Shown: positions 28,307 through 49,154 of the stretch, one piece after another
How positions within the stretch are numbered: the stretch's first letter is position 1
How the letters are laid out: each line of letters starts with the position of its first letter
Origin: a virus
Strand: one strand, 5' to 3'
Virus record (IMG/VR): IMGVR_UViG_3300025886_000014
Location: 1-64,000 of that record
DNA length: 64,000 bases
Notes under the pieces: generated by a model
What the model saw: the letters and a program-made list of their open reading frames with translations, nothing else
The model's database searches: none
What the model was told of the DNA's origin: nothing
Program-made: the position numbers and the translations under genes

Positions 28307-29593
28307 CTATCCAGCAAATCTTGCTTTTGTTCTATCGTATGTAATTCCAGAAGTATATCTAGTAGCATTAGCATCAAAAAACATAATTCTCACAAATCCA
28401 GGGCCACCTTGATTAGTACTAGGTGCTACGCTTTGACCACTAGTTCCTTTTGATCCAGTTCCACCAAACCCATATCCACCACCATTTGACTGTCTAGTGA
28501 AAAGATCATTAAAACCCTTCCCTCTTGATCCAATTCCACCACCATGTGTTGTGGTCACTTCTAATATCCAATCTGCTTGTGATACACGCCATCCAAGACC
28601 CTCTCCCCTAATATCATGAGAAATGCCTTCAGTGGTAGGAGAACCTGATGTTTGATATCCGGGCGCACCACCACCGCCAAAAATAGATGAACTATAATTA
28701 AAACTAGGACTAGTAGTTAATGTTGAGCCATTATTAACTAAACATGCTGATAAATATGAAGTTCCTCCCCAACCACCAGCATAATGTAATTCTAATTTTG
28801 AGTTGTCATATATGGTAACTTTATTTCCAGTTCCAGGACCAAATGCATATCCAGATAAAGAATAACCTTGAGTTTCTATACTTCTAGTTCCACTATCAAA
28901 TGTAGATACTCTATGAGTATTAGTGGATTTTGCAGCCCCACCTACTGTAAGTACATTGCTTCCATTTTTATAAACGTAAGAATTTCCACCATCACTTGCA
29001 TTACCACTAACTCCTTGAAATCCCCATTCACCACTATTTGATGATCCACCAAGTGCTTTACCGCCATTTCCAACTCTAATTGTAATTACATCGCCCTCAG
29101 TTACAGGAATTGGATGTGTTTGTGCATAATCGCCACCATTTCCACCAGCGGGTGCGTTAATGAATGAAGATGAAATTCCACCACGACCAGACCAAGCCCA
29201 AGGTCCAATATAACCAGAAGCACCAGCACCTTGTATAAAAATTTTCATATGTGTAAATCCACAATGCTGTGGAATTGTATATGTGTAATCAGATGTTGTT
29301 GTTTGTGTTGATGATGCGACAGTATATACAGCATCAAAATATGGTTTTATCATAAAATCACTTAAAGATATTTTGCCTGAAGATGGAACACCAGTACTAT
29401 TAGATATTCCAGAGTTTATAATTAAATTCCCATCAGATTCTGCGACTAAACTACCACCTTTATAAAATTCCGATAAAGATACTGATCCAGCATCGCTAAA
29501 TTGATTCTTGATATCAGAAAAACTAAATGAACTATCACCATCTAAGTGAGGATAATTGCTATGTAAACTTGTAGGTTTAAATGTTGTTGGCAT
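28307..29593 (-). CDS. Glycine-rich tail-fibre adhesin
   Basis: A 428-residue protein in two parts. Residues 1-110 contain two related segments (FSFSDIKNQFSDAGSVSLSE and a later GKISLSDFMIKPYFDAVYTV) that look like a short virion-anchoring repeat. From about residue 130 onward the chain is glycine-rich, with patches such as GGGYGFGGTGSKGTSGQS, and ends with GGPGFVRIMFFDA, a typical terminal strand of marine phage glycine-rich adhesins. Glycine-rich polyproline-II-like sandwiches form the receptor-binding tip of gp38-type adhesins in T4-like phages; this comparison is structural inference. The ATG overlaps the end of the upstream fibre gene by 17 bases. Confidence 0.65.
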   Translation of the reverse strand: MPTTFKPTSLHSNYPHLDGDSSFSFSDIKNQFSDAGSVSLSEFYKGGSLVAESDGNLIINSGISNSTGVPSSGKISLSDFMIKPYFDAVYTVASSTQTTTSDYTYTIPQHCGFTHMKIFIQGAGASGYIGPWAWSGRGGISSSFINAPAGGNGGDYAQTHPIPVTEGDVITIRVGNGGKALGGSSNSGEWGFQGVSGNASDGGNSYVYKNGSNVLTVGGAAKSTNTHRVSTFDSGTRSIETQGYSLSGYAFGPGTGNKVTIYDNSKLELHYAGGWGGTSYLSACLVNNGSTLTTSPSFNYSSSIFGGGGAPGYQTSGSPTTEGISHDIRGEGLGWRVSQADWILEVTTTHGGGIGSRGKGFNDLFTRQSNGGGYGFGGTGSKGTSGQSVAPSTNQGGPGFVRIMFFDANATRYTSGITYDRTKARFAG

Positions 29594-30800
29594 TAGACTC
29601 TATCTTTTCCCTAAGATATTCAACATCTACTCTTAACTCATTTATTGCCTCTACAATAAGACCCATCATATTGCCATAACGAATTGCTTTATTTTCACCA
29701 TCAAATTCATAAACAACTTCTGGAAGAACTTCAGAAACTTCATCTGCCATAAGACCAGACATTTTTTCTTCTCTACCTTTATAGTTAAATGTATATCCAG
29801 CCAATGTACCAACTTTATCAAGAGCATTATCAATACGTTCAATATTTTCTTTCAATTTCCTATCAGATGCACTATTAAACGCTGTAATATCAGCATTTGA
29901 TGTAATCGCACCATCAGCATGTAATGTTGATGAGAGAGATAACGAATGACCATTATCTAGTACATCAGACCTAAGATATTTTGGATCAGTTATAGTATTA
30001 AGTATCAAAGAAGAGTCAACCCCAGCAGATGATCTTGCCAATACATACGCAGAATCAACTTGAGTTGATAGATTTGTTTCATCAATTAATTTGTGCCACG
30101 CCCCCCCATGAGAAAAATATCCCTTACCAGTTCCATGCACATGAGCAAACATACCATGATAAGTTGCTGCTGAAGGAAGATCGCCTTCTGTAGAATACAT
30201 ATTTGCATAAAGAGATTTGCCAGTTGTGATAATATTATTACTTCCCATATTAAGGTCAGCACTCGTAATATCACTTGTTCTTGCCGCTATATAATCACTA
30301 TCAACATGGGTAGTTACTCTTGCGTTTGTATAATATAGGTTTGTTGAACCTTCAGTAATTTCATCAGTATTATCTTTTGTCAGAATACTTGCGTCTACAT
30401 ACGCTTTTACTGATTGCTGAGATGGTACGTGAATGGCACTGTTTGATGCCATCCCATCTTCATCAAGTAAATCGCTTGTTTTAAGACCATCATTAATACC
30501 ATAACCTGCTAATGTAGTTGGTTTAAGTGTGATGTTTGAAAATGCTACAGTAGTAGGTTTTGTTAGAGTATTTAGAGTAGAACTATTTATTTTAGTGTAA
30601 ATATAATTGGAATCTACAAGTGCTTGAACTCCGCTACTTGTCAAAGCCCCAGTATTATTGTAATGCTGTTCTAAGTTTGCCAAGGTAACTTTTGCGGTAG
30701 CATAACCACCAGATAAATTGGTTCCTGTTACTACCAAAAAATTTAGATTACTATCTAAATCACTACTTGTGGCAGTTGGTAAATCTACTATTTTGACCAT
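29577..30800 (-). CDS. Tail fibre with C-terminal S74 intramolecular chaperone
   Basis: A 407-residue fibre. The C-terminal 100 residues (308-407) are a Peptidase_S74 / intramolecular chaperone autoprocessing domain: SASDRKLKENIERIDNALDK, then GLMADEVSEVLPEVV, then a terminal helix. The expected cleavage Ser and catalytic Lys are S312 and K317 (spacing five), matching the dyad of endosialidase-type chaperones, so the domain probably folds the trimer and is then cut off. Residues about 195-240 contain GDLPSAATYHGMFAHVHGTG, a module also present in the giant fibre. N-terminal part: KIVDLPTATSSDLDSNLNFL. The start at 30800 follows the previous fibre's stop by 11 bases. Confidence 0.85.
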   Translation of the reverse strand: MVKIVDLPTATSSDLDSNLNFLVVTGTNLSGGYATAKVTLANLEQHYNNTGALTSSGVQALVDSNYIYTKINSSTLNTLTKPTTVAFSNITLKPTTLAGYGINDGLKTSDLLDEDGMASNSAIHVPSQQSVKAYVDASILTKDNTDEITEGSTNLYYTNARVTTHVDSDYIAARTSDITSADLNMGSNNIITTGKSLYANMYSTEGDLPSAATYHGMFAHVHGTGKGYFSHGGAWHKLIDETNLSTQVDSAYVLARSSAGVDSSLILNTITDPKYLRSDVLDNGHSLSLSSTLHADGAITSNADITAFNSASDRKLKENIERIDNALDKVGTLAGYTFNYKGREEKMSGLMADEVSEVLPEVVYEFDGENKAIRYGNMMGLIVEAINELRVDVEYLREKIESNANNI

Positions 30801-32072: not shown

Positions 32073-32080
32073 TATTTATA
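32073..32080 (-). promoter_or_regulatory. T4-type late promoter at the end of the radical-SAM operon
   Basis: TATAAATA on the minus strand, 31 bases upstream of the fibre ATG at 32041 and overlapping the last codons of the operon gene at 32076-32522. It restarts late transcription exactly where the non-structural operon ends. Confidence 0.8.
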
Positions 32081-32522
32081 AGGTTTCTAAGGCTAGTTTA
32101 AACTCATCCTCATAATATTTTCTAACATCTGGAACCATTCCTTTCATTTTTAAAGGAAATTCTATATTTTTCAATATTTGATCATAAGTATCAATATCTA
32201 AATGATATTGAATAAAATGTGGATCGTTTTCCGCTAGTAGATATTTATCATTTAATAATTCAAAGAAATTTTCATCAAAATCTTGAGATAACCAATATGC
32301 ATAACATATAGCAACAAAATATGATTTTGCTGGTCTAATAGTTTCATCAACATATTCATTAAAGTGTAGTAAAGCATCCCTTACAATATTTTCTTCACTC
32401 CATGTCACATCCATTTTATTCAAATCATCTGAATACTCTCTATTAAGTAAGTGATAAACTTGGGACGCTGTTCTCCATTTTCTCATACCAATCCAATAGC
32501 CCTTTATATCCGTTACATCCAT
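32076..32522 (-). CDS. Unrecognised protein ending the radical-SAM operon
   Basis: A 148-residue protein rich in Asp, Glu, Tyr and Phe, predicted mostly helical (for example PAKSYFVAICYAYWLSQDFD and KYYEDEFKLALETL), with no recognisable family or metal motif. The start at 32522 has a good ribosome-binding site (AGGA, eight bases before ATG) but makes an 80-base overlap with the radical-SAM gene upstream. A second ATG at 32414, encoding an identical MDVT start, would remove the overlap but lacks a clear ribosome-binding site. It resembles in length and composition the small partner or leader-binding proteins found with peptide-modifying radical-SAM enzymes, but no sequence evidence supports that. 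Confidence 0.6.
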   Translation of the reverse strand: MDVTDIKGYWIGMRKWRTASQVYHLLNREYSDDLNKMDVTWSEENIVRDALLHFNEYVDETIRPAKSYFVAICYAYWLSQDFDENFFELLNDKYLLAENDPHFIQYHLDIDTYDQILKNIEFPLKMKGMVPDVRKYYEDEFKLALETL

Positions 32523-33372
32523 TATCTAAATCCTTGACATATCGGTAATGTTCTGTTAAACAATTACCGAAATATTTGCATGAAGCGCAAATCGGACTTA
32601 TCATTTCTTCTTTTTCTTTTTCTGCCCAATCCAAGTAAGATTGAAAAGAATCCAACTCTTTAAAGTATTCCCTATCGTGAACATCAAACTCCAATACTCC
32701 AAACTTGCCGTTAGGAGTAATGTAAACATGATCATCCGAAAATGCATTGTATAATCCACTAAAAGACTCCTCTATCTTGTTTGCATTTACAAATTGAAAA
32801 TCCATTTGATTTTCTAATTCCATCCACTGAATAACAAACTTTTCAAAATCTAAATGCGTCACAGTAAATGCATTTGCTTGATTAATAGAATATGGTTTAA
32901 TCTCTACTGATTTAACAGCACCACACATATTCAATAATTTTATCATTTCATTTACATTCATCTTTAAAACTTGCGGTGATGCAAGAATAAGAACAGCAAT
33001 CGGTACTGGACTCATCATCATATTCTGAAATACCAAATTTGATTTCTCTCTTGCTTCAAAATCGTAAGATACTGATAGATAAACATCGTCATCAAAGAAA
33101 CCATCATGCATCATAGAATAGTTTGTGTTGATATTTATTTTTTTACCATAATACTTTTTAATTGTATTTTTAACATCATAAAAATAATTTTTCTTCATAG
33201 CACCAATTTCACCACCATATAGATCAACATGCTCTATATCTGGAATTTGTGAAAGTAATTCATCAAGTCTCTCAATTGAAATTTTTTTCTGATCGCCTAA
33301 TTGTTCTGAAGTAAGATAACAAAAATCACAGCGAAAATTACAAAAATAAGATGGATTTACAGATACAATCAT
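32443..33372 (-). CDS. Radical-SAM protein with SPASM-like C-terminus
   Basis: A 309-residue protein. The motif C11-x3-C15-x2-C18 (PSYFCNFRCDFCYLTSEQLG) binds the [4Fe-4S] cluster that cleaves S-adenosylmethionine; DLYGGEIG a little after is the usual SAM-contact GGE motif. The C-terminus (SPICASCKYFGNCLTEHYRY, then NGCNGY) supplies further cysteines in a SPASM-like arrangement that in related maturases holds an auxiliary cluster near the peptide substrate. Its ATG overlaps the TGA of another radical-SAM gene upstream (ATGA). The family mostly modifies ribosomally made peptides or proteins; the substrate here is unknown. Confidence 0.8.
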   Translation of the reverse strand: MIVSVNPSYFCNFRCDFCYLTSEQLGDQKKISIERLDELLSQIPDIEHVDLYGGEIGAMKKNYFYDVKNTIKKYYGKKININTNYSMMHDGFFDDDVYLSVSYDFEAREKSNLVFQNMMMSPVPIAVLILASPQVLKMNVNEMIKLLNMCGAVKSVEIKPYSINQANAFTVTHLDFEKFVIQWMELENQMDFQFVNANKIEESFSGLYNAFSDDHVYITPNGKFGVLEFDVHDREYFKELDSFQSYLDWAEKEKEEMISPICASCKYFGNCLTEHYRYVKDLDNGCNGYKGLLDWYEKMENSVPSLSLT

Positions 33373-34403
33373 GCATATTCTCTTACATATTCAGTAACTT
33401 TAGTATCCATTCTATTTAAAGAGATTATATCTTTAGCCATAGATTTCATATGTTGACAGTGATCTTCAACCATGTTATGTTGTTTCAAATCTTTAATTGT
33501 TTTACGGCATCCATTACAAATTTCAAACATAGGACAGGTAAAACACGAATTTTTAAGACTCATTAAACTCAAATCATTACTGAGAGGTGTCTCAAAACCC
33601 CCATTCATTTCATATTCAAAATCTATTGGTTTGTCAAAATCATCACCGAAAGAACCACAAGAATAGTAATCACCTTCTGGTTGAATATTACGAATGCCAC
33701 TATCACAGTTTCTGGACTGAGGACATATGGTTGGTTTTTTTCTTAACCTATTTAACATTTGTTGAGTATTATGTTCCCAATCACTAAGTCCTGCTTTCCA
33801 AATTTGAATATATCTCTCATAAATTTTTGATAATCTATATGGTGCTGACTGAGAACCAGATGCCATAGCATAATTTACCTTACAAACAACATTCATCTTC
33901 TTAGCAAGTTGTACAGTCTGTATTACAGTATCTTCATTTTCATCCACAATTACCGCAATAAATGATGGTCTATAGCCTACATGCTCAAGCATCGCATCAG
34001 AACATTTCCAAAAATCTTCTTCTGTAAATTCACTGTAATCTCCCTTGAGCCTACCACCGCCATATTGAAATGAAGTCCCAACACCAATTCTATGATGATT
34101 AAAGAGTTCTGCCCATTTTTTTGGTTTCATTAAAAAAGGATACAAATTGGTTGTAAGGGATATTGTCGCTGGCATATCATGTTTATCTAAAAACTCTATT
34201 AATTTCCAATAGTAGTTTGGCCTCATCATTAAAGGATCACCACCATTTACGATGATAGTTTGCGTTTCAGGAAATCTTTTAAGAAATTTGAATATCTTAT
34301 TCAAATCAAGTACAGCAGTGTTATCCTCTTGAGTAATTTTAGAGGAAGAACAAAATGAACATTTAAAATTGCATAATTCTGTTGGTTTGATAATTAAGTC
34401 CAT
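33369..34403 (-). CDS. Radical-SAM/SPASM protein
   Basis: A 344-residue protein. It has C11-x3-C15-x2-C18 (ELCNFKCSFCSSSK), then TIIVNGGDPLMM as the SAM-contact motif, and a long cysteine-bearing C-terminal half: CPQSRNCDSG, YYSCGSFG, NSCFTCPMFEICNGCRK and a final HC. This is a full SPASM-type layout able to bind one or two auxiliary iron-sulfur clusters, as in peptide maturases (PqqE, AlbA and anSME types). It lies in the operon between a 2OG-oxygenase-like gene and another radical-SAM gene, overlapping both by a few bases. The domain assignment is strong; the substrate is inferred to be a peptide or protein. Confidence 0.85.
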   Translation of the reverse strand: MDLIIKPTELCNFKCSFCSSSKITQEDNTAVLDLNKIFKFLKRFPETQTIIVNGGDPLMMRPNYYWKLIEFLDKHDMPATISLTTNLYPFLMKPKKWAELFNHHRIGVGTSFQYGGGRLKGDYSEFTEEDFWKCSDAMLEHVGYRPSFIAVIVDENEDTVIQTVQLAKKMNVVCKVNYAMASGSQSAPYRLSKIYERYIQIWKAGLSDWEHNTQQMLNRLRKKPTICPQSRNCDSGIRNIQPEGDYYSCGSFGDDFDKPIDFEYEMNGGFETPLSNDLSLMSLKNSCFTCPMFEICNGCRKTIKDLKQHNMVEDHCQHMKSMAKDIISLNRMDTKVTEYVREYA

Positions 34404-34978
34404 GGAGAATTCTTTATATTAAAACCAAAATTCATTGTGATTCTTTGCACATTGGGTTTTCTAAAATCCTCAACTCTATGTTGAAAATTTAAATCTTGAC
34501 TACCTAATATTAAATCATATTTTTTTGGTAAGTGATAACAAGTGACACGTTTATTTTGTCTCATATTTCGGAACATTATTTCACCACCGACTCCTTGTTC
34601 CATATCAGTGAAATATAGTAAAAAGAAAACATTTGCACCTTCTCTTAAATCATTATGCCAAGAACTAGAACCATCACATGCTCCATTCCAAATATATGAA
34701 TATATTAATTTTTTGCTCTCATAACAATCGTCATACTTTGATAAGTATGTATCATACAATAAATCAGCAGTTTTCTTTATTTTGTTTCGCATACCATTCA
34801 AATGATAATTCCAACAAATGCTATAACTTTTACAATCATCACCATCATTTAACCATTTTATTTTTGGAATATTATCACTACTCATATTTAACCACTTTAG
34901 TTTTGGCATAGTATCATTGATATGAATAAACATATTTTTATTATTTTCCATAAGATATCCTTGGTCTTTCATTTCCAT
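34394..34978 (-). CDS. 2-oxoglutarate/Fe(II)-dependent oxygenase-like protein
   Basis: A 194-residue protein. The motif WHNDLREG gives an HxD pair, and FQHRVEDFRK followed by QRITMNFGF gives the distal His and the Arg that would hold 2-oxoglutarate, the facial triad of this superfamily. It is a clear paralogue of the gene immediately upstream: GGEIMFRNMRQNKRVTCYHL here versus GGEIMYRNMKQNKRITAFHL there. The ATG overlaps the end of that gene by 10 bases. Members hydroxylate proteins, nucleotides or small molecules; in this operon a role in modifying a peptide or surface protein is inferred. An ATG six bases in is an equally possible start. Confidence 0.8.
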   Translation of the reverse strand: MEMKDQGYLMENNKNMFIHINDTMPKLKWLNMSSDNIPKIKWLNDGDDCKSYSICWNYHLNGMRNKIKKTADLLYDTYLSKYDDCYESKKLIYSYIWNGACDGSSSWHNDLREGANVFFLLYFTDMEQGVGGEIMFRNMRQNKRVTCYHLPKKYDLILGSQDLNFQHRVEDFRKPNVQRITMNFGFNIKNSPWT

Positions 34979-35523
34979 GGAGATTCCTTTACTTTAAATC
35001 TAAAAAGCATTGTTATTCTTTCTTGCTTCAATTCTCTTGTATGCTCAACTCTATGCTGAAACTTTAAATCATCACCTACACTTCCCATTACTATATCATA
35101 TTTTTTAGGTAGATGAAAAGCAGTTATTCTTTTATTTTGTTTCATATTTCTGTACATTATCTCACCACCATTATTCGGTTCTGAGTCTGTAAAATACAAA
35201 TTAAATTGTAAGTTGCCACCTTCAGTATCATGATGCCACTCACACGAACCAGTGTCCGTCCCATTCCACATAGTATAATAATCCAAGTGTTTTTCGGTTT
35301 CCCACGGCAAGTAGGTTTCCCAAAGTAAATCGGCAGTTTTTAGCATCTTACTTTTCATGGAGTGGAAATAATAATTCCACGCGACGCTTTGCCATCTGTC
35401 AGATTTATCAGAATTACTTCTCTTTAAGTATAACCATTTTAATTTTGGTAATGTATCTTTTATATGAATAAACATATCAGGATTATTTTCAATAAAACAT
35501 CCAGAATTTTTATCAATATTCAT
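34969..35523 (-). CDS. 2-oxoglutarate/Fe(II)-dependent oxygenase-like protein (tandem paralogue)
   Basis: A 184-residue protein read from the ATG at 35523, which follows the upstream stop by one base. Metal and cosubstrate residues: HHD in SCEWHHDTEGG (HxD), the His of FQHRVEHTRE, and the Arg of QERITMLFRF. It shares the KKYDIVMGS loop and the EIMYRNM strand with its downstream neighbour, so the pair came from a tandem duplication. An in-frame GTG at 35541 would add six residues but sits inside the previous gene. Substrate unknown; oxygen- and 2OG-dependent hydroxylation is the expected chemistry. Confidence 0.8.
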   Translation of the reverse strand: MNIDKNSGCFIENNPDMFIHIKDTLPKLKWLYLKRSNSDKSDRWQSVAWNYYFHSMKSKMLKTADLLWETYLPWETEKHLDYYTMWNGTDTGSCEWHHDTEGGNLQFNLYFTDSEPNNGGEIMYRNMKQNKRITAFHLPKKYDIVMGSVGDDLKFQHRVEHTRELKQERITMLFRFKVKESPWK

Positions 35524-35524
35524 T

Positions 35525-36055
35525 TTATTCCCAGCCCACACTTACAGTCATTCTTGGTTTAGAGCCAAAATAAGGTCTAATACAATGTACCATAGAACTA
35601 TTAAAAACTACTAACCTACCCACTTTTGGTTGTATTCTAGTCTTATTTTTTGGATATTGAAAAATATCAAGAGAATCATAAATATCCAACTCACCACCTT
35701 GCCAACCATTATTATCTATATCTATAAAAAATAATGTAATGATTTTAGACTCTGTTCCATCATGATGTGGTTCCCAAATCATATTTTCATTATTATCTTT
35801 TTCATACTTGACAATTTTTATCAAATGTGATATAGCAATTTTTTTTACATTTGAATCTTTCACCATCGCAATAGTTTTTGCTTTATTCAGATTTGGAAAG
35901 TCATCCATATTATCTTTAATATTTATCGCCATATTTTTTTGCATGTTAAATCTTGGCAAATCCTCAATAGAGGGATTGGCAAAAGAAAACTTGCTTTGTA
36001 TTCTTTCAAGTTCTTTTTTATTCAAAAAATCATCATAAATTTCTACAGAATTCAT
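35525..36055 (-). CDS. Prolyl-4-hydroxylase-type 2OG/Fe(II) oxygenase
   Basis: A 176-residue protein of the compact P4H-like form. EPHHDGTESK supplies HxD, WQGGELDIYD is the strand that follows the active site in this family, SSMVHCIRPYFGSKPRMTVS supplies the distal His and, ten residues on, the Arg for 2-oxoglutarate. It is only distantly related to the two paralogues downstream. Such enzymes are common in marine T4-like phages. The start at 36055 overlaps the upstream B12-type radical-SAM gene by 23 bases, placing it in the same transcript. Confidence 0.85.
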   Translation of the reverse strand: MNSVEIYDDFLNKKELERIQSKFSFANPSIEDLPRFNMQKNMAINIKDNMDDFPNLNKAKTIAMVKDSNVKKIAISHLIKIVKYEKDNNENMIWEPHHDGTESKIITLFFIDIDNNGWQGGELDIYDSLDIFQYPKNKTRIQPKVGRLVVFNSSMVHCIRPYFGSKPRMTVSVGWE

Positions 36056-37700
36056 CTAATCTTTCCTTTATCATTTCTTCATTTTTATTTAATAATATTT
36101 TCATTTCATTGACAATATCTTTACCTTTAAAGCGTCCCACATCAAACTTATCTATGCTATGTGGATTTTTATCATAAAATATATTTCTTATTAATTCTTT
36201 GTAAACAAAAAACATAGGAATATCATTCAATATATTCCACAATTCTTTTGCTACCTCGGAAACATTTTCATATGTAGTATATTCACTTATAAAACTTAAA
36301 CCTATATGTGGTGTAAACAAATTCATTATAAACATTTCTAGATATTCTTCAAACGTATATGAAAAACACTCAATTATAGTATCATATTCATATGCAACAT
36401 CCCCATATATTGGATTTACTTCAACATCATCCCATTTTCCGCTATAGTTACCATCAAATTGTGTTAATACTTTTGAAGTTTTTATTTTATACTTTTCTTG
36501 ATATTCTTTACTGGCAGTTTCAGTCGCTGGTAAAACCATGTAAGGATATCTAGTGTCTGCCCATACGTCAAGACCTTTCCATTCTTCCCAATCTTTTCCT
36601 TCATTATACCCAACTCTATAGTATACTTTAAATTCCTCGTAAAAATCTTTTAGTGTAGATCCCGGCATCGCTAAAATTAATTCTAAGTCTAACCATAATT
36701 CTTTTTCTTTAAAATTATTCCATTTATTAGTTAAATGATCCACCAACTCATAAGTTTCCTCAACATTAAGGTCTCTCCTGTTCGCAATTTTTCTCGCTTC
36801 TGGTGATATTGATTGTAAACTGATACTGATAACTTGACGAGTAATATCATGCTCAATCATAAAATCAAGCATTTCTTTTTTCTGTTCCAATTTTAAAGTT
36901 TTTAATACCGATAGATTTTCACCAATTTGAACCCCATTATCCACCATGTGCATCATCATTTCTCTATCACGTTCTTTAAACATTCCTGTATTAGCATCAC
37001 ACAAATCAATATGTACACCTTTGAACCGCCCTATAAATTCCATTTCATCCTTTATCACAGCCATAGGTTTTTTTAGAACTTTTGTTCCAGTACCGCCACC
37101 CCACTCACAATAAGAACACTTAAATGGGCATCCTCTAGTACTTTCATATATCAATGTTATTCGCTCATATAAGTCTATATTTTTAATGAAATGCTTATAT
37201 TCTTTGGTAAAATAATCTTCACATCTCTTATATACATTCGTATGTCCAAATGGAAGAGGAATTTTTAAAGAACTACCCAAATAAAATGGAATCTTTTTCT
37301 TATCAACAGAATCCTCTAAATACATATCAAGAAAGTATTGAACGAATATTTCTCCTGGAGCAAGAGGGTCTGCAACATAGTCATAATCTTTTATTATATC
37401 AGGGTCTTGTTGAGGACCACCCATAACTACTATGGTATCTGAGTCAAGGCCATTTCGTATCCTTTGGTTAATTTTATAATTCCAAACATAATTGGTAAAA
37501 AATACAATAGAACACCCTTTAACATTATCCAAACAATCTTGTATTGTAACTTCATTCCATTTGAATATTGGCTCCACCCAAGTAACTTTTTCTGGATATT
37601 TACCGTAATCTTCATAAAAACATTTAAAAAGCATCCAATGATAATTAAATTCGGCCCTTGAAGGTATTCCTGTTGGATTTATATAACCTACTTTAATCAC
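36033..37700 (-). CDS. B12-binding-like radical-SAM protein
   Basis: A 555-residue protein. Residues 1-125 look like a cobalamin-binding Rossmann-type domain: TIVVMGGPQQDPDII and YVADPLAPGEIFVQYFL follow the 'vvvGGp ... D.vv.GEge' pattern, though no DxHxxG ligand motif is visible, so cobalamin, if bound, would lack the lower-axial His. The radical-SAM core follows, with C191-x3-C195-x2-C198 (RGCPFKCSYCEWGGG). Class B enzymes of this layout methylate or rearrange unactivated carbons, including in peptides (PoyC-like). GTG start at 37700 with GGAG ten bases upstream; it overlaps the previous gene by eight bases. The domain calls are strong, the reaction is not known. Confidence 0.8.
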   Translation of the reverse strand: MIKVGYINPTGIPSRAEFNYHWMLFKCFYEDYGKYPEKVTWVEPIFKWNEVTIQDCLDNVKGCSIVFFTNYVWNYKINQRIRNGLDSDTIVVMGGPQQDPDIIKDYDYVADPLAPGEIFVQYFLDMYLEDSVDKKKIPFYLGSSLKIPLPFGHTNVYKRCEDYFTKEYKHFIKNIDLYERITLIYESTRGCPFKCSYCEWGGGTGTKVLKKPMAVIKDEMEFIGRFKGVHIDLCDANTGMFKERDREMMMHMVDNGVQIGENLSVLKTLKLEQKKEMLDFMIEHDITRQVISISLQSISPEARKIANRRDLNVEETYELVDHLTNKWNNFKEKELWLDLELILAMPGSTLKDFYEEFKVYYRVGYNEGKDWEEWKGLDVWADTRYPYMVLPATETASKEYQEKYKIKTSKVLTQFDGNYSGKWDDVEVNPIYGDVAYEYDTIIECFSYTFEEYLEMFIMNLFTPHIGLSFISEYTTYENVSEVAKELWNILNDIPMFFVYKELIRNIFYDKNPHSIDKFDVGRFKGKDIVNEMKILLNKNEEMIKERLDEFCRNL

Positions 37701-38331
37701 CTTTATAGAACTCCATATTCATAAATTGTATCTTTGTGAACCCTTTTAAAACCTTAGACGTATATGGAGTTTCCATTATAGCACTGTCTGGATGGGTAGA
37801 CATTTTTTTCATTTGAGTGTATAGTGTTTTGGCTGTAGGAACGTAAATAGGTCTATTCTCAATTTCAGTTTTGCAAAATTTCACCATGATTTTATAAAAG
37901 TCTATTTCTTGCCTTCTGGTTAAGCAATCTCTATAAATTCCATTTATTTGAATATTTGACATTATTGTATAATTTTTAGTTTTCTCTGTACCAATCCACC
38001 CTAACTCATAATCATTATTCACTGCTGTTTTGGGTGACCCAGTAAATTGAGTAGTGTAATCTTCTATCATAGATTTACTATTAACTTCAGATAATAAATT
38101 ACTTGATAATGGAACACTAAAAACGTACACTTCACTACTCAAAAAATTATCTAAAAAATGAATACATGGGGGTAATTCTATATCAACTGAATAATCAAAT
38201 ACTGTACGGCACACATTATAGTCTATATCAATTTCTTTTATTGGAGTAATTAATCTTTTCGCTCTTGTTGGAAACCTATTTATAAAAGATTGACTTATTG
38301 GAGATTTATCACCATTTCCATAAAAAAACAT
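37693..38331 (-). CDS. Unrecognised operon protein (212 aa)
   Basis: I do not recognise this protein. It has mixed alpha/beta composition, three scattered cysteines (for example YNVCRTVFDYS and VKFCKTEIENR) and no paired metal motif, signal peptide or membrane helix. The C-terminal part ends VLKGFTKIQFMNMEFYKGD. It lies between two radical-SAM genes with a one-base gap upstream and an eight-base overlap downstream, so it is co-translated with them and probably acts in the same pathway, as an adaptor or transferase; that is position-based inference only. Confidence 0.6.
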   Translation of the reverse strand: MFFYGNGDKSPISQSFINRFPTRAKRLITPIKEIDIDYNVCRTVFDYSVDIELPPCIHFLDNFLSSEVYVFSVPLSSNLLSEVNSKSMIEDYTTQFTGSPKTAVNNDYELGWIGTEKTKNYTIMSNIQINGIYRDCLTRRQEIDFYKIMVKFCKTEIENRPIYVPTAKTLYTQMKKMSTHPDSAIMETPYTSKVLKGFTKIQFMNMEFYKGD

Positions 38332-38332
38332 C

Positions 38333-39373
38333 TCATCTTAATCCTTGATTTTCAATATATCTATGTGTCATCTTATAAACACATTCATCAAAAATTTCCT
38401 CTGCATATTTGTAATCGTGTGCCATGAAACACCCAAGAGTACATCTATGGAAATATTCACAAGTAGAGCAATTGTACTTCTCAAGAAATGCTTTCTCAAT
38501 AGGCTTATTATTGGCCTTTTGTATATCAGTTTTATACATTGCTTTATCTCTTGGCTCTTGAACAAGATTTCCACACAAACACATAGTCCCATCCTCAAGA
38601 ACTAATTTAGATGATCTGCATGAAACAACATTACGTTCATTTTCTATCCAAGAACGAATAGGTTCAATCTTAGGATAATTATCTATAAAATGTGTAAAAA
38701 TATCGTAATGTTCTTTATCTGTCGGCATACTTCTTTCTGCTTGACAATCGGGCATGTAGTAATCAGCATAAACCTTAACACCTTTATGATATAGATCATG
38801 CATAAAATCTTTTGGATCAGTAAGCCAATATCTTATATTTGATTTAGTTAGAAGAACACCTATACCTTCTAAATCATCCCAAAAATCATATACATTCTCT
38901 TTGAAAATTTCTAAGTTTGGTTTGTTAAATCTACCTCTAGGATCATATGAGGTTACAAGTTTTGTAGCACATCCCATATCCCTACACGCTTTTAATATTT
39001 CTCTCACATAATCCTTTTTACTAATAACAAGATTAGTTACCCAATTAATACTCACTTCATCAAAGTTATATTTTTTTCCTAAGTTTACTATTCCTTGAGC
39101 AAGAGAAATGTAGTCATTCTTCAATTTTTCATCAAAAATTTCATCGGCAAATATTTCGCCACCCATAATATTTAAAACAACACGTTTTCTCATTTCTTTC
39201 TCAAAGAATTTTTCTATTGATTCTAATTTATCTAAAACTGTATCAATACCCACAATGTTGTCATGGTCTTGCCAGCAAAATGGGCAAGATAGATTACAAA
39301 ACTCAAACAAATGAATTGTATATTCTTGCTGCTTATCTCTTTTATCTCTTAAAATAAAATCTACTAAATCCAA
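38333..39373 (-). CDS. Radical-SAM/SPASM protein with TTG start
   Basis: A 346-residue protein with C26-x3-C30-x2-C33 (FCNLSCPFCWQDH), GGEIF as the SAM motif, and C-terminal cysteines in CLCGNLVQE, NCSTCEYFHRCTLGCFMAHD and DECVYKMTH, again a SPASM-like auxiliary-cluster region. The reading frame begins at a TTG that follows the upstream TGA directly; an AGGAG eight bases before it supports this start. The Trp right after the third cysteine (CW) is a common variant in peptide maturases. Its reaction is unknown; chemistry on a ribosomal peptide is the best-supported class. Confidence 0.8.
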   Translation of the reverse strand: MDLVDFILRDKRDKQQEYTIHLFEFCNLSCPFCWQDHDNIVGIDTVLDKLESIEKFFEKEMRKRVVLNIMGGEIFADEIFDEKLKNDYISLAQGIVNLGKKYNFDEVSINWVTNLVISKKDYVREILKACRDMGCATKLVTSYDPRGRFNKPNLEIFKENVYDFWDDLEGIGVLLTKSNIRYWLTDPKDFMHDLYHKGVKVYADYYMPDCQAERSMPTDKEHYDIFTHFIDNYPKIEPIRSWIENERNVVSCRSSKLVLEDGTMCLCGNLVQEPRDKAMYKTDIQKANNKPIEKAFLEKYNCSTCEYFHRCTLGCFMAHDYKYAEEIFDECVYKMTHRYIENQGLR

Positions 39374-40027
39374 TCAAACTTCTCCTGCACCAACTCCCCA
39401 AGTTAATAGGAAAAGTGGATTTTTTTCATAGGACCAATAATCAAATAAACCCTTTCCATTAAACATATATTCATTAAAATATTTAGAATAATAGGTCAAG
39501 TTTTTTTCATCTAATCCATTGTAGTAATAATAAAAATCTTCATGTTTTAATAAAGATACAAAATTAATACCTTTTATATCATCAGTATCATCTTCTTCAT
39601 GTGATATTACCCAATCTTTCATCTCATCATCTTGGATAATATACATATTATAAAGTGTCAATGAATCTAACTTTTTAATCCAAGTATCAATGACTTCTTT
39701 GTTATCATCAATGAAATCTTGATAGCAACCTAAACATTCTAAAGATAGATTTTTTTTCACCAAAAGAACCTCAATAATAAATTCTTCTAAAACTTTAATA
39801 TTTAATATTTGTGGAAACTGAAGATATATTTTTGCAAGGTTCTCTAAATCATTTCCTTCAACTTTAATATCACAAGGTAACTCTAAGTTGCTTAAATAAA
39901 CGAGTAATTTCTCACCTTGTAACTCACTATTTTCATAATCAATAATAAAATTAATACTATCATCAGAAAAATATTTTTGTAAATCATCAATACCTAGTGG
40001 TGCAGTCACTGTAACATAATTATTCAT
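39374..40027 (-). CDS. Unrecognised acidic operon protein (217 aa)
   Basis: A very acidic protein (many Asp and Glu, for example SHEEDDTDDIKG) with Tyr-rich segments such as EDFYYYYNGLDEKN. It has no recognisable domain. Leu-rich amphipathic stretches (KIYLQFPQILNIKVLEEFII) suggest helices. It lies between the CHSN-tail gene and a radical-SAM gene, seven bases after the former. By position it could be an adaptor that presents the substrate, like the peptide-recognition partners of many peptide-modifying enzymes, but nothing in the sequence proves it. Confidence 0.6.
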   Translation of the reverse strand: MNNYVTVTAPLGIDDLQKYFSDDSINFIIDYENSELQGEKLLVYLSNLELPCDIKVEGNDLENLAKIYLQFPQILNIKVLEEFIIEVLLVKKNLSLECLGCYQDFIDDNKEVIDTWIKKLDSLTLYNMYIIQDDEMKDWVISHEEDDTDDIKGINFVSLLKHEDFYYYYNGLDEKNLTYYSKYFNEYMFNGKGLFDYWSYEKNPLFLLTWGVGAGEV

Positions 40028-40034
40028 AATAAAA

Positions 40035-40862
40035 TTATCTCCTATTTCTTGATGAATGGCAATTAGAGTGGCAATTAGAATGGCATACAGATTCAGTATA
40101 TCCTGCTATATTTCCATCTATAGCAACAGTTTTCCATGCCTCATATAGATTATTGAATAATGTTTCCATATCACCATCATCAATTAAATCTCCAGCGACT
40201 ATCATTGAATGATCAACATCAGAAGAATCAATGGTGAAACTATGTCTAGGAGTTAAAACGCCCACTCCACTAACACTTATTGCTTTACCTATAACAGCAC
40301 CACTTCGTAAACTAACTGCATATTTTTGTGTCGCTGATGTACAAGCCGATTGAGCGTCTGAACGTAAGGTCTCTGCTTCTTGTTTTGTGGAAGGTTTTCC
40401 ACCAATACCATATGAATTCCAATTTGTAAAAAACTCTGAGATAAATCCACCAAAAGTAACACCAGCCCCAGCAGATACTTCGTTGTCTAAAGCATCTCTC
40501 CATTCACAAGCAAAGTTTTTTTCCTTTTCTGCATTTTCGGTAGATGCCGTATTGCGTGACGGTATTGGTATATTTCCACCTGGAATACCAGTTACAGTTC
40601 TTGTGGCAGTAAATTTTCTAACTCTAGTATATTGGTTAATATCCTTTAATAGAACAGCAAAAATATTTGATGCTGTTATTGGCCCATCCAACAAATCAGG
40701 ATTTGTTGTCACACCAGTTGTATTTCCATGAAAATAACTTGCTACTGATGCAAATGGTAGATTATCATCACCAAACACAATAGCATCATTAATTTTATCA
40801 GTCACAAACTGTCTGTATTTTGTAATTACAGGGTTTTCTGTAATAGGGTCTGATATTGCCAT
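40035..40862 (-). CDS. Putative modified structural protein with a C-terminal Cys/His/Ser repeat tail
   Basis: A 275-residue protein. Residues 1-259 form an ordinary-looking body rich in Ala, Ser, Thr and Asp (MAISDPITENPVITKYRQFV, then GGNIPIPSRNTAST and FGGFISEFFTNW). The last 16 residues are CHSNCHSNCHSSRNRR, three CHS units spaced by Asn and ending in basic residues. Outside the tail there are only two cysteines. The gene lies directly between two radical-SAM/SPASM genes in an operon that also encodes 2OG-oxygenase-like proteins. A repeated Cys/His/Ser tail next to radical-SAM/SPASM genes is the layout of a ribosomal-peptide precursor whose core is cross-linked or hydroxylated; an alternative is a metal-binding tail on a fibre. 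The body does not look like a typical short leader. AGGAG-type ribosome-binding site before ATG. Confidence 0.7.
   Translation of the reverse strand: MAISDPITENPVITKYRQFVTDKINDAIVFGDDNLPFASVASYFHGNTTGVTTNPDLLDGPITASNIFAVLLKDINQYTRVRKFTATRTVTGIPGGNIPIPSRNTASTENAEKEKNFACEWRDALDNEVSAGAGVTFGGFISEFFTNWNSYGIGGKPSTKQEAETLRSDAQSACTSATQKYAVSLRSGAVIGKAISVSGVGVLTPRHSFTIDSSDVDHSMIVAGDLIDDGDMETLFNNLYEAWKTVAIDGNIAGYTESVCHSNCHSNCHSSRNRR
40056..40085 (-). repeat. 12-bp tandem repeat coding for CHSN units
   Basis: On the plus strand gcaattagagtg is followed by gcaattagaatg and a partial third copy. Each 12 bases encode Cys-His-Ser-Asn in the minus frame. The near-identity of the units points to recent slippage-type expansion of the tail. 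Confidence 0.85.
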
Positions 40863-40872
40863 TCTTTATCTC

Positions 40873-41892
40873 CTAGACATTCTTTGCCAATTCCATCATT
40901 AAACTTTTAGGTGCGCCACACACATCACCTTCCCATCCTAATTGGTGACAATCACCACCACAATATTTTGCAACAGGACAAGAAAGGCAATTGGGGTTTC
41001 TCATTTTTTCTTCAATAATAGTTCGTATTCTTCTAGGACTATTTATAAGAGTTTTAATAGAATCATCCAAAGTTCCGAATTGAAATTCTGGTGCTGAATT
41101 CGGACAACCACTTATTGTACCATCTCCATTTATTGTAAATAATTTTGTTTCACAATCTCTACAAAAAGTGCCACACGTAGTAAGAGTTTTCTCAAACTTA
41201 GCATATACATTTTCAAGAAAGTCATTTTCAAACCAATCTCGCGCACCATATTTTTCACTTTGTTGATGCATTTTCAAAAAATAAGCATCTAATTCTTTAT
41301 TAGATGGAAATATCTCTGATGCTTCTCTAGCATTACCATTATTAGTTAATCTCTCTAAGGATACTTCTTGAACCCCTAATCTTCTACACCATCTCAATAA
41401 TACAATAGGGTCTTTTTCTAAAGTATCTTTAGTAAGACTAATAAACAAACGTATAGTTACACCATCTGCTAAAAGAGACTTGACGTTTTTATGCCATAAG
41501 TTATATTGTCTTTGATTATCAAATCTTATCTTACGGTCCCATGAAGTTCCTAACCTATTCCTAAGTGGGCCTTTTATAAATTCTCTATGCTGATCTTTTA
41601 ATTTATATACTAAATTGGTTGTGGCTCCCCAACTCATATTATCCCAAAGACCATCACAAGCATCATACACTTTTCTCATTTGCCCTACAGGTACAAGAAA
41701 TGGTTCGCCACCATGAAACTCTAAATGAATACCATCATCCTTCGCAGGTTTTTCTTCACGAAATCTATGTATCCAATCAACTATCTTATCAGTATTCCAA
41801 TAAATTTTAGCACCGTTGCTACCAGAGGTAAAACAGTGCTTACAGTTTAATTGACAAGTTTCTGTGGTTTTAAGATATACTGACCAAAACAC
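40873..41892 (-). CDS. Radical-SAM/SPASM maturase next to the CHSN-tail gene
   Basis: A 339-residue protein, the clearest maturase of the set. C13-x3-C17-x2-C20 (ETCQLNCKHCFTSG) is the radical-SAM site and H60-GGEP (61-64) the SAM-contact motif. A middle stretch (TCGTFCRDCETKLF, then GDGTISGCPNS) and the C-terminal C302-x2-C305-x5-C311-x3-C315-x9-C325 (NCLSCPVAKYCGGDCHQLGW) form a full SPASM domain for two auxiliary clusters, as in anaerobic sulfatase-maturating and sactipeptide-type enzymes. GTG start at 41892 with GAGG upstream; it overlaps the cupin gene by 23 bases. It lies immediately upstream of the CHSN-tail gene, making that protein the most likely substrate (inference). Confidence 0.85.
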   Translation of the reverse strand: MFWSVYLKTTETCQLNCKHCFTSGSNGAKIYWNTDKIVDWIHRFREEKPAKDDGIHLEFHGGEPFLVPVGQMRKVYDACDGLWDNMSWGATTNLVYKLKDQHREFIKGPLRNRLGTSWDRKIRFDNQRQYNLWHKNVKSLLADGVTIRLFISLTKDTLEKDPIVLLRWCRRLGVQEVSLERLTNNGNAREASEIFPSNKELDAYFLKMHQQSEKYGARDWFENDFLENVYAKFEKTLTTCGTFCRDCETKLFTINGDGTISGCPNSAPEFQFGTLDDSIKTLINSPRRIRTIIEEKMRNPNCLSCPVAKYCGGDCHQLGWEGDVCGAPKSLMMELAKNV

Positions 41893-42388
41893 TATTCATT
41901 TTATCCTCTATAAATTTTTCTAAGCCAAAACTCAAAGTAAGTGCTTCATGTTCATTAAATGCTTGGTGAGGGGTATTCGCAGGAATATGTAGTGTTGCAC
42001 CTTCCTTCAAAGTAAATACTGGTTCACCACCCATAGTATGACCTTCCATTGCTATCGTTTTCATTCCTTCACAACAATATATAACGACATTATCTGGATC
42101 AGTATGTTTTTTGAATGAATGAGCATTTTTTTCAGCATAAAATAAATGACATGTTATTGGGCCATTATGATCATACATATCTTCTAGTTCTAAACAATAA
42201 GAAAAAATCTCCGAGTTATATGCTTCCATTCTTTCAATTTTTATTGAATTTGTATTTTTATTTGCAAGAGTATCCGCAAAATTTTTCATTAGATGTTCTC
42301 TGCCATTTTCATCTATTGCATAAACCATATTTTGTTCATACGCAAGATCACTCGCAATTATTTTTAAGAATTGACTCTTAGTAAGCAT
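41870..42388 (-). CDS. Cupin/JmjC-like protein, first gene of the radical-SAM operon
   Basis: A 172-residue protein. The C-terminal half is a double-stranded beta-helix: FKKHTDPDNVVIYCCEGMKT provides HxD, LKEGATLHIPANTPHQAFNE provides the distal His, and ALTLSFGLEKF is the closing strand. This is the JmjC/cupin-8 pattern of protein hydroxylases, but the identical fold also serves as a sensor or non-catalytic cupin. It opens the operon, 20-27 bases after a perfect sigma70-type promoter, with AAGGA eight bases before its ATG. It could be an oxygenase acting with the 2OG enzymes downstream. Fold fairly sure, activity not. Confidence 0.7.
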   Translation of the reverse strand: MLTKSQFLKIIASDLAYEQNMVYAIDENGREHLMKNFADTLANKNTNSIKIERMEAYNSEIFSYCLELEDMYDHNGPITCHLFYAEKNAHSFKKHTDPDNVVIYCCEGMKTIAMEGHTMGGEPVFTLKEGATLHIPANTPHQAFNEHEALTLSFGLEKFIEDKMNSVLVSIS

Positions 42389-42451: not shown

Positions 42452-43654
42452 TTAGAGTTTAAGGACACACTCAATCATTTTTTCACCCTCAAAATCATTA
42501 CTTTCAAGAGCGAGACCTACTAATTCTGCACCATTAAACTCTGAACTAGCAACACCATCACGCCAAGTATATACTGCCTCACCTTTTCTAATTTGACCAT
42601 TTACTCTTACGGGAACCCTACCTTTAAGTGCAAGTGCTTGTCCTTCTGCTTCTGCATTCATAAGAAATGCTGGCTCTGCTGAAACGACTCCAATTGGAAT
42701 ACCAGAAGTGGTACATCTTGTAGTTTCACCAGTTGGCCCAAAATTTACCATCATAACAGTGCCTATTGGATAATCTTCATCTGTGGTATATTTTTCCGCA
42801 AGGTCAGCAAAATTAGCAGATGTAGCATTACCATGAAAAGTTGTTGCGTACATATTTGCGTATTTAAACGATGAACTACCCACACTGTAAGAGTTATCTG
42901 TGTCTGGAACAATATGCCCACCGTGATTTATTTGACCATTAAATGTTGATGTAACAGAAAGAGCGGAAGTCCCAACAGTAACCGTATTGTAAAAAGTACT
43001 AGTTCCATTATATACTCTTGTACCAGTGTATGATGTGGAAACATTATTTCTTACAAGAGATGGGTCCATTGCTTCTAATGGTATTGTAGTACCATCAGTC
43101 ACTATTTTACTAGCAGGAATATCAGGTATTCTTCCTATTAGAAAAGTTCCCCTATTAATTTTACTAGTATGTAAAGATGGAATACGATCACTATCAAATT
43201 GCCCAGCAGTGGTTTGATTTGCAGATAGATATGGTAATCTAGCAGTTGCTAATGTTCCAGTTGTTATAACCCCAGCATCTATTGCTGGTATTAATGATGG
43301 ATTAATAGTTCCAGTTGTTAATTTTCCAGCATCTAAATTAGGAATATCGTTTGCCGTGAGTGGATTACATGTGAATGTAAATACCCCACCACCAATACCT
43401 GCTGAATCTGTATAAGATAAACTTGAATATGTACCAGACCCACCAGTTGATAATGCTAATGCAGTTCTTGCTAATCCTTGCACTTCACCATTAACAGCAA
43501 ATTTACTTTCAATTGAATTTACTGCACCGACAATACTTCCACTATCAGTTGTATTTAAATCATCTAAATCACCTATATAAGTTGCAGTAAGGTTTGTTTT
43601 CATTCTCCAAGCATTTACTGAATTACTGAGATCAACATTTTCTAATCTAGCCAT
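42452..43654 (-). CDS. Tail fibre with conserved C-terminal domain
   Basis: A 400-residue fibre. The N-terminal about 150 residues are paralogous to those of the fibre at 30812-32041. The middle repeats 'IPALDAGxITTGTLxxARLP'-like units. The C-terminal part holds SYSVGSSSFKYANMYATTFH, then ANFADLAEKYTTDEDYPIGT, a C-terminal domain widely shared by fibres of marine T4-like phages. The start is the ATG at 43654, served by AGGTG six bases upstream; an in-frame GTG at 43663 is less likely. It is the last structural gene before the radical-SAM operon and ends nine bases before that operon's -35 box. A baseplate-attached short fibre is the likely role. Confidence 0.8.
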   Translation of the reverse strand: MARLENVDLSNSVNAWRMKTNLTATYIGDLDDLNTTDSGSIVGAVNSIESKFAVNGEVQGLARTALALSTGGSGTYSSLSYTDSAGIGGGVFTFTCNPLTANDIPNLDAGKLTTGTINPSLIPAIDAGVITTGTLATARLPYLSANQTTAGQFDSDRIPSLHTSKINRGTFLIGRIPDIPASKIVTDGTTIPLEAMDPSLVRNNVSTSYTGTRVYNGTSTFYNTVTVGTSALSVTSTFNGQINHGGHIVPDTDNSYSVGSSSFKYANMYATTFHGNATSANFADLAEKYTTDEDYPIGTVMMVNFGPTGETTRCTTSGIPIGVVSAEPAFLMNAEAEGQALALKGRVPVRVNGQIRKGEAVYTWRDGVASSEFNGAELVGLALESNDFEGEKMIECVLKL

Positions 43655-43865
43655 TAGTGTCACCTAACTTTCTGGAAATTTCTACAAGCAGATTTTTCAT
43701 ATCCGCTACTTCTGATTTTAATACTTGAAATTCTTCTTTTTCTTCTCGCATTTTTTTCTTTCTTGCCTTCGCTTTTTCAATTTCTACAAGATCACTATTA
43801 ATTATAGCACCAGATTCTAAATCTTTGACATAATTTTTTTCACCTTGAATTTTAGAAAATAACAT
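43647..43865 (-). CDS. Small coiled-coil protein of the baseplate/fibre region
   Basis: A 72-residue protein (MLFSKIQGEKNYVKDLESGA) followed by a highly charged helix (EKAKARKKKMREEKEEFQVL) and a heptad-like end (VADMKNLLVEISRKLGDTNG). The second two-thirds is predicted to be one long coiled coil. The ATG at 43865 has AGGTG six bases upstream; an upstream in-frame GTG at 43874 would lie inside the preceding gene. It overlaps the fibre gene start by eight bases. It may be a linker or a trimerisation or assembly helper for the adjacent fibre. Confidence 0.65.
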   Translation of the reverse strand: MLFSKIQGEKNYVKDLESGAIINSDLVEIEKAKARKKKMREEKEEFQVLKSEVADMKNLLVEISRKLGDTNG

Positions 43866-48201: not shown

Positions 48202-49154
48202 TATGCGCTATCCTCGAATCTTATGAAAAACGGTGTAACTGTGTAATCTCCAGACTCATCATTTGTTCTAACCGCCATTAAATCATTAATTAAATTATAT
48301 TGATCTAATCCAGTAACTCTTTCTGCTATTTTTGAATTCACAACATTAGCAACATACACGAATGTTTGTCCTGATGTTATAAGGTCTTGAGTCGTAAGTA
48401 CTAATTTAATTCTAAATCTATCTGCACCAGGCGCAGTTTGGTTTGGGACACTACCTTGATTATCATATAAAGTAACATCATCATCTACTGTGACGATATC
48501 TTGTTCTACCTTAAAGCCAACAACCTTTGAAATATCATTGGTATATTTTGAAAGTATTATTTCTTGTTGAGGTGCGTGAACAAAAAAACCTTGTGTAAAA
48601 AAGTCTTGATTTCCACTTGAAAATTTGGTTCCAAAACCATATGCTGGATTAATTGTTGTATTAGTTGTTTGTACTATCAAACGAGTTGATCCATTATTCT
48701 CAACTAATTCTTCTGATGGAGAAATATTAATAGTTTCAGTTGAAGATGTGCCACTAAGTGTATTTGTATACTGAACATATAATGTGTCAGGGTCTGGAGA
48801 TGATGCTAAAACAACCTCTAATATTTTTATAGTTACTCCAGAAGTTTGTCCTACAAAGGATTTACCAACTAAAGAACTTGAATTGGCTGGTAGTGCATTT
48901 GTAGATGTATCCAATTTAATAAATCGGTATCTATTATTAATTGCAACACCACCAGCAGAAACCGCTGCACCTTCTTTGAAGATGTTTTTACCAAAGCGAT
49001 TGACTCCTTCTTGGATAATCGTTTGGAGTTGGGTCAGTTCTCTTGCTTGTAATGCCTTTTTATTGTTAAAGAGAATACGTTGAAAACTTTTATCTTCATC
49101 GTAGTCATCCCTATAAACATTTGCAAAAGTATTTGTGGTGAATGTCTTAACCAT
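48201..49154 (-). CDS. DUF4815-type baseplate protein, N-terminal part
   Basis: A 317-residue protein. DDYDEDKSFQRILFNNKKAL, then QARELTQLQTIIQEGVNRFG and IFKEGAAVSAGGVAINNRYR are hallmark phrases of DUF4815 phage tail proteins ('fxrvLF.pgkaLQAREL.qLQ..lq.q..rfg..ifkdG..v.gG'). It ends NDESGDYTVTPFFIRFEDSA, which in single-gene versions continues into '...SPGKAYVNGY', here the start of the next gene in the -1 frame. So two genes encode what is usually one protein. The stop overlaps the next ATG, so ribosomes probably reinitiate. Confidence 0.75.
   Translation of the reverse strand: MVKTFTTNTFANVYRDDYDEDKSFQRILFNNKKALQARELTQLQTIIQEGVNRFGKNIFKEGAAVSAGGVAINNRYRFIKLDTSTNALPANSSSLVGKSFVGQTSGVTIKILEVVLASSPDPDTLYVQYTNTLSGTSSTETINISPSEELVENNGSTRLIVQTTNTTINPAYGFGTKFSSGNQDFFTQGFFVHAPQQEIILSKYTNDISKVVGFKVEQDIVTVDDDVTLYDNQGSVPNQTAPGADRFRIKLVLTTQDLITSGQTFVYVANVVNSKIAERVTGLDQYNLINDLMAVRTNDESGDYTVTPFFIRFEDSA

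Follow-up and report, generated by a model that had tools for sequence, protein, structure and literature searches.

The window, by which we mean the whole 64,000-nucleotide stretch of DNA analysed here, belongs to a 66-kb viral contig (IMG/VR record IMGVR_UViG_3300025886_000014). An open reading frame with an ATG start on its minus strand (40035-40862) encodes a protein of 275 amino acids, hereafter the tail protein, which ends in ...ESVCHSNCHSNCHSSRNRR-stop. Consistently with the first-pass annotation, which had reported a Cys-His-Ser repeat tail at the extreme C-terminus, the last 16 residues (260-275; positions 40038-40085, minus strand) read CHSNCHSNCHSSRNRR, and alignment and codon data point to them as the likely site of modification. 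The gene had also been described as lying between two radical-SAM/SPASM genes, and this was borne out, with one further gene intervening: the SPASM-type radical-SAM gene rSAM1 (A; 40873-41892), carrying CX3CX2C and SPASM cysteines, lies 10 bases upstream on the 5' side, and the radical-SAM/SPASM-like gene rSAM2 (C; 38333-39373), recognised by family profiles, lies on the 3' side, separated from the tail gene by gene B (39374-40027; 217 aa, phrog_20767). All cassette genes described in the window are on the minus strand.

Upstream of rSAM1 lies D (41870-42388), a putative JmjC/cupin-type 2OG protein hydroxylase (JmjC_2 and Cupin_2 above cut-off), whose HxD and distal His are kept in 111/111 homologues and which has a conserved G-x-K motif. 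Beyond rSAM2 follow I (37693-38331; 212 aa, seen by profile comparison in close relatives only), the B12-type radical-SAM gene G (36033-37700; nearest to KedN5 C-methyltransferases at 83 bits, below the equivalence cut-off), the 2OG-Fe(II) oxygenase H1 (35525-36055; PF13640 above cut-off), the 2OG-Fe(II) oxygenase-like H2 (34969-35541; PF13640 E 8e-4, below cut-off), its relative H3 (34394-34978; similar to H2, no Pfam match itself), the radical-SAM/SPASM gene rSAM3 (E; 33369-34403; nearest to DynA), the radical-SAM gene rSAM4 (F; 32443-33372) and, at the cassette end, L (32076-32522; 148 aa, with profile matches in other cassettes). rSAM3 and rSAM4 were recognised by family profiles and by CX3CX2C, a motif present in 133/143 rSAM1, 107/107 rSAM2, 64/64 rSAM3, 40/41 rSAM4, 42/42 G and 87/88 J sequences. 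The presence of multiple radical-SAM enzymes per tail suggests that some of them act on other targets. In other cassettes a further family, K (~350-385 aa, starting like M-x-H-L-F-x-x-V-Y), was recorded (L256:11698-12816, L257:7030-8187, L258:11986-13122, L013:9643-10713 and L015:10436-11491); it was not found in the window and has no Pfam or NCBIfam assignment.

We explored the structure of the tail protein with an AlphaFold model built from 46 sequences. The body was ordered and alpha/beta (pLDDT 84.6 for the model), while the tail was disordered and exposed (pLDDT ~50). Foldseek found no relative of this model in the PDB; viral structure matches, with E up to 0.004, were a 178-aa protein of the same length as the tail protein of Pseudomonas phage DT01, an uncultured-phage protein and the Atu_ph07 homologue. 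The B model was confident (pLDDT 94) and likewise had no fold match in the PDB by Foldseek; B is possibly involved in substrate recognition. Neither the tail protein nor B was assigned a function by Pfam, NCBIfam or PHROGs, and the tail protein had no Pfam match and no S74 domain of its own.

When genomes were scanned with a DNA pattern (C-H-x-x-C-H-x-x-C-H-x-x-R-x-R-R-stop), the ending CH-x-[SN]-CH-x-[SN]-CH-x-[SN]-R-G-R-R-stop turned up on at least 120 viral contigs, and it was also present in Bdellovibrio-like bacteria and in cultured jumbo phages that infect four host genera. The tail-bearing carriers span 124-364 aa. The whole window protein had no tblastn match in the phage collection, because its body diverges too fast; a 20-aa tail query by tblastn also had no match, and the bodies of two other carriers (L017 and L032) matched no cultured phage. 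Homologues were thus reached through the neighbouring genes and not through the tail protein body. The rSAM1 and B genes matched an identical set of seven GenBank records, all of them jumbo phages, with Agrobacterium, Sinorhizobium, Burkholderia and Pseudomonas as hosts, and in five of these seven the gene after rSAM1 ends in CHSSCHASCHNSRSRR, CHTSCHASCHSSRSRR, CHSSCHTSCHGSRGRR (two Burkholderia phages) or CHTSCHTSCHSARGRR. Four full-length relatives retain the tail with bodies down to ~52% identity, and a fifth relative is cut short ahead of the tail. Many loci encode two tandem tail proteins, and one 151-kb viral contig (G015, the record of L176/L091) has both a single-tail and a tandem-tail locus (30709-30759 and 48460-48896). 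The tail protein at L047:8105-8878 carries four repeats rather than three (...CHSNCHSNCHSNCHTNRSRR).

Conservation was concentrated in the tail. A 46-sequence alignment had 10 invariant columns, nine of them within the tail, and the bodies diverged beyond recognition; these 46 proteins had been selected as tail bearers, and the linkage test selected on rSAM1 (below) is therefore the stronger evidence. In 185 distinct motif-selected proteins, in which Cys, His and Arg were fixed by the search and the other positions were free, positions 4, 8 and 12 were almost always Ser or Asn and position 14 was Gly in 164. Tail-bearing sequences used both Cys codons and both His codons about equally, and all six Arg codons occurred. 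Since synonymous codons vary, selection acts on the amino acids of the tail. The final Arg codons of the window gene include AGGAGA (within 40035-40060), a stretch that may at the same time act as ribosome-binding site for gene B; roughly one sequence in four has CGN codons at these positions and still encodes Arg.

The first-pass annotation had proposed searching for CHxxCHxxCHxxR tails beside radical-SAM genes, and had named a tail found mostly in phages without such genes as the outcome that would count against it. When 80 viral loci were picked solely by rSAM1 alignment, a gene following rSAM1 bore the strict tail in 74 and the remaining six stopped short of that position, so that the tail was present on the next gene at every testable locus (74/74). 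At rSAM1-selected loci with adequate flanks, B was present in 66/66, rSAM2 in 59/60, D in 71/73 and K in 54/60, and the cassettes were collinear and on the same strand across loci. In 20 relatives picked by their baseplate wedge protein, tail and rSAM1 were both present in two and both absent in 18, which indicates an accessory unit whose parts are gained and lost together; some of these contigs are fragments, which makes absence less certain than presence. Moreover, in 12 tail-bearing records the cassette was hardly or not at all visible; 11 of these contained radical-SAM genes, and the twelfth is an 18-kb fragment with weaker matches to the J profile. The adverse outcome was therefore not observed. 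Tail and cassette travel as one accessory unit made of rSAM1, B, rSAM2 and usually the JmjC-like hydroxylase, often accompanied by rSAM3/4, the B12-type radical-SAM protein and 2OG oxygenases. A coincidental or hitch-hiking neighbourhood of unrelated genes is contradicted by these co-occurrence tests, by the conservation of the tail and by its codon diversity, and we give it almost no weight.

In the window the cassette lies among tail-fibre genes. A tail-fibre-like gene (42452-43663, minus strand; phrog_19602 tail fiber protein, E 1.5e-15) is upstream of it, a fibre gene with a Peptidase_S74 chaperone (29577-30800, minus strand; PF13884 E 8e-14) is downstream, and between 51 and 64 kb the window carries genes for a T4-like baseplate and tail. 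These baseplate and tail genes, together with fibre-like genes near both cassette ends, resemble the region described by Zaragoza-Solas et al. We also considered whether cassettes in phages are always linked to S74 fibres; this is unsupported, such fibres being present in just 8/22 tail-bearing viral records.

The first-pass annotation had called the carrier a virion protein, and the jumbo phage Atu_ph07 bears on this. In the Atu_ph07 report (PMC6102473), virion proteins identified by mass spectrometry cluster in CDS 31-76, 170-215 and 284-329. Counting annotated CDS put the tail protein at CDS 170; the same count returns gp132 (tail sheath) as published and is consistent with the published gp140 and gp181/182. 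The first CDS of the published cluster 170-215 is thus the tail protein. Of its neighbours, rSAM2 (168) and B (169) precede the cluster, and its range covers rSAM1 (171) and D (172). This is only suggestive of the tail protein being in the particle, on the strength of a cluster boundary rather than a protein table, and the earlier description stands to that extent. We regard it as probable that the tail protein is part of the virion in phages.

The same unit occurs in bacteria. In 257 Gb of bacterial and archaeal genomes, 19 prokaryote contigs matched the DNA pattern; three were clearly false (lacking a stop codon behind the tail, interrupted by internal stops, or in an ORF of just 29 aa), and the cassette accompanies most of the remaining matches. 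We dismissed the matches in Frankia (L140), Pseudoalteromonas (L141) and Bordetella (L147) as due to chance, and one at a contig edge (L146) is of uncertain status. Within one Bdellovibrionota order, 5/129 genomes carry one copy each; most of these cassette-bearing bacterial genomes are MAGs, and two copies lie on 219- and 382-kb contigs amid genes that look housekeeping-like by eye from their N-termini. In the rSAM1 tree, most Bdellovibrio-like sequences form one clade among viral ones and one falls elsewhere. The bacterial tail protein has no obvious signal peptide. Peptidase_S74 fibre chaperone genes adjoin the cassette at four Bdellovibrio-like loci, and three of the four start with a prepilin-type motif (L248:6155-7192, L249:18456-19646 and L259:248-1525), the start of the fourth being outside the region analysed. 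Since the S74 fibres of Bdellovibrio, known as MAT proteins, contribute to the recognition of prey (PMC10769870), a contact role is suggested for the bacterial cassette, and by analogy the Bdellovibrio-like unit may serve prey contact. The MAT fibre paper does not mention radical SAM; the tail protein differs from MAT fibres in lacking S74, and wherever the start of an adjacent S74 gene could be read, its product has an N-terminus of prepilin type.

We compared the cassette with known radical-SAM systems. The ranthipeptide (PapB), CXXX-repeat (TIGR04115), dynobactin (DynA) and His-Xaa-Ser (HxsB/HxsC) systems likewise place a SPASM radical-SAM enzyme beside a protein with a repetitive C-terminus of Cys, His and Ser; in the cassette, in contrast, the tail sits on a folded protein 124-364 aa long, and a leader, a protease and an exporter were unrecognised. 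No cassette member attained the cut-off of any named RiPP maturase family (HxsB 33.6/370, HxsC 31.7/267.9, TIGR04115 37.9/350 and DynA 56.8/450 bits). A maturase lay beside the substrate at all 74 testable loci, as is characteristic of RiPPs, whereas the carriers, with their length and modelled ordered body, are not short leader-core precursors, and neither a leader protease nor an exporter was recognised among the cassette genes of the window. Pfam and NCBIfam detected no RiPP recognition element, and the fold of B had no PDB match. Because two defining features of RiPPs fail, we do not class the system as a RiPP in the strict sense; by analogy, the system may nonetheless work like a radical-SAM RiPP system.

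By sequence, the best PDB relatives of rSAM1 were anaerobic sulfatase-maturating enzymes (anSME; E ~3e-7), which modify Cys or Ser in a protein motif and not in a short peptide; rSAM1 reached 38.8-46.7 bits against them, for a cut-off of 349, and the tail lacks a sulfatase motif. D shares HxD...H and G-x-K with the JmjC/ROX ribosomal oxygenases, a family that hydroxylates His or Arg of proteins, and differs from them in being short (172 aa) and virus-encoded; from its sequence, it is a putative hydroxylase. Radical-SAM cassettes occur in host-recognition clusters of pelagimyophages (PMC7029224), and T4-like marine phages with as many as 12 radical-SAM genes, accompanied by genes for Fe-S assembly and with no reported substrate, were described in 2017 (PMC5332604). 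Compared by description, those cassettes likewise belong to T4-like marine phages, the former in the host-recognition region; the two papers report no substrate, no tail motif and no spread beyond those phages. In the open-licence papers searched, a scope that leaves aside preprints and most subscription papers, no description of the tail-cassette system was found. The enzyme families of the cassette are known; the novelty would lie in the system, since to our knowledge no radical-SAM cassette has been described that modifies a virion protein at its end. A reader giving more weight to the enzymes could call it a variant.

Taken together, these data make it likely that the gene encodes a host-contact virion protein in which the disordered C-terminal 16 residues serve the cassette as its dedicated substrate. 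We hold with high confidence that the tail is covalently modified by the cassette, and give about even chances to a role of the tail protein in host contact. As for the chemistry and function of the modification, we infer the following scheme. rSAM1, perhaps guided by B, would act on each Cys-His-x-Ser/Asn repeat, most likely joining the Cys sulphur or the His to a neighbouring residue; a Cys-based thioether specifically is a tentative assignment. The JmjC/2OG enzymes would hydroxylate His, Asn or Arg near the repeats, and the product would be a rigid, basic tip contacting the Gram-negative cell surface at adsorption or entry. More speculatively, the unit common to unrelated tailed phages and predatory bacteria might be a mobile cassette that gives a surface-contact protein a cross-linked and hydroxylated tip, one able to attach to, or break through, some conserved feature of the outer membrane of Gram-negative cells.

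Other readings of the tail were weighed against this one. Follower peptides occur in some RiPPs, and a tail that is disordered, terminal and obligately paired with rSAM1 could be a recognition handle of this kind, with its basic R-x-R-R end possibly docking the enzyme and the modified residues lying in the body. The bodies, however, have almost no invariant residue, whereas the tail keeps Cys and His, typical targets of such chemistry, and a repeat number that varies (four at L047) fits a substrate better than a docking motif; we therefore find a handle unlikely, while giving it more room than the remaining alternatives. Metal sites built from Cys and His are also known, as are fibre tips filled with metal, and the regular Cys-His repeats would suit a tail that carries no covalent modification and binds a metal such as Zn or Fe, in which case a trimer could stack ions axially. 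Metal binding leaves unexplained both the strict pairing with rSAM1 and B and the conserved Ser/Asn at positions 4, 8 and 12, and appears improbable.

The modified tail might instead be excised and released as a free peptide, either a bacteriocin-like RiPP or a superinfection factor. The RiPP-like enzymes, the ABC-transporter-like ORFs seen by eye, from N-termini, near the bacterial cassette L249, and a faint, non-significant resemblance between the tail and Cys-rich bacteriocin precursors (TIGR04065, E 0.07; TIGR04333, E 2.8) go in that direction. Against this, the body is large and folded, a protease or exporter was unrecognised in the cassette of the window, and the Atu_ph07 virion cluster starts at the tail protein gene; a released peptide thus seems as improbable as metal binding.

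If the tail is indeed a substrate built into the particle, radical chemistry would take part in building a virus, as a new route to the part that meets the host, and phage adsorption would be linked with prey contact through a unit shared with predatory bacteria. The tail is also a candidate substrate for the radical-SAM genes of marine T4-like phages, its motif is precise enough for searching any genome, and cultured carrier phages exist, among them Burkholderia phages FLC8 and SURPRISE13, Atu_ph07, Pseudomonas phage DT01 and Sinorhizobium phage Phosso.

Two minor observations concern neighbouring genes. One 5716-aa ORF of the window (10292-27442) contains many DSAYI/DSGHID-type repeats and is probably a giant fibre protein. 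A Burkholderia jumbo phage has, between rSAM2 and rSAM3 of its cassette, a pair of genes that carry a dihydrofolate reductase annotation (L013:14406-15583).
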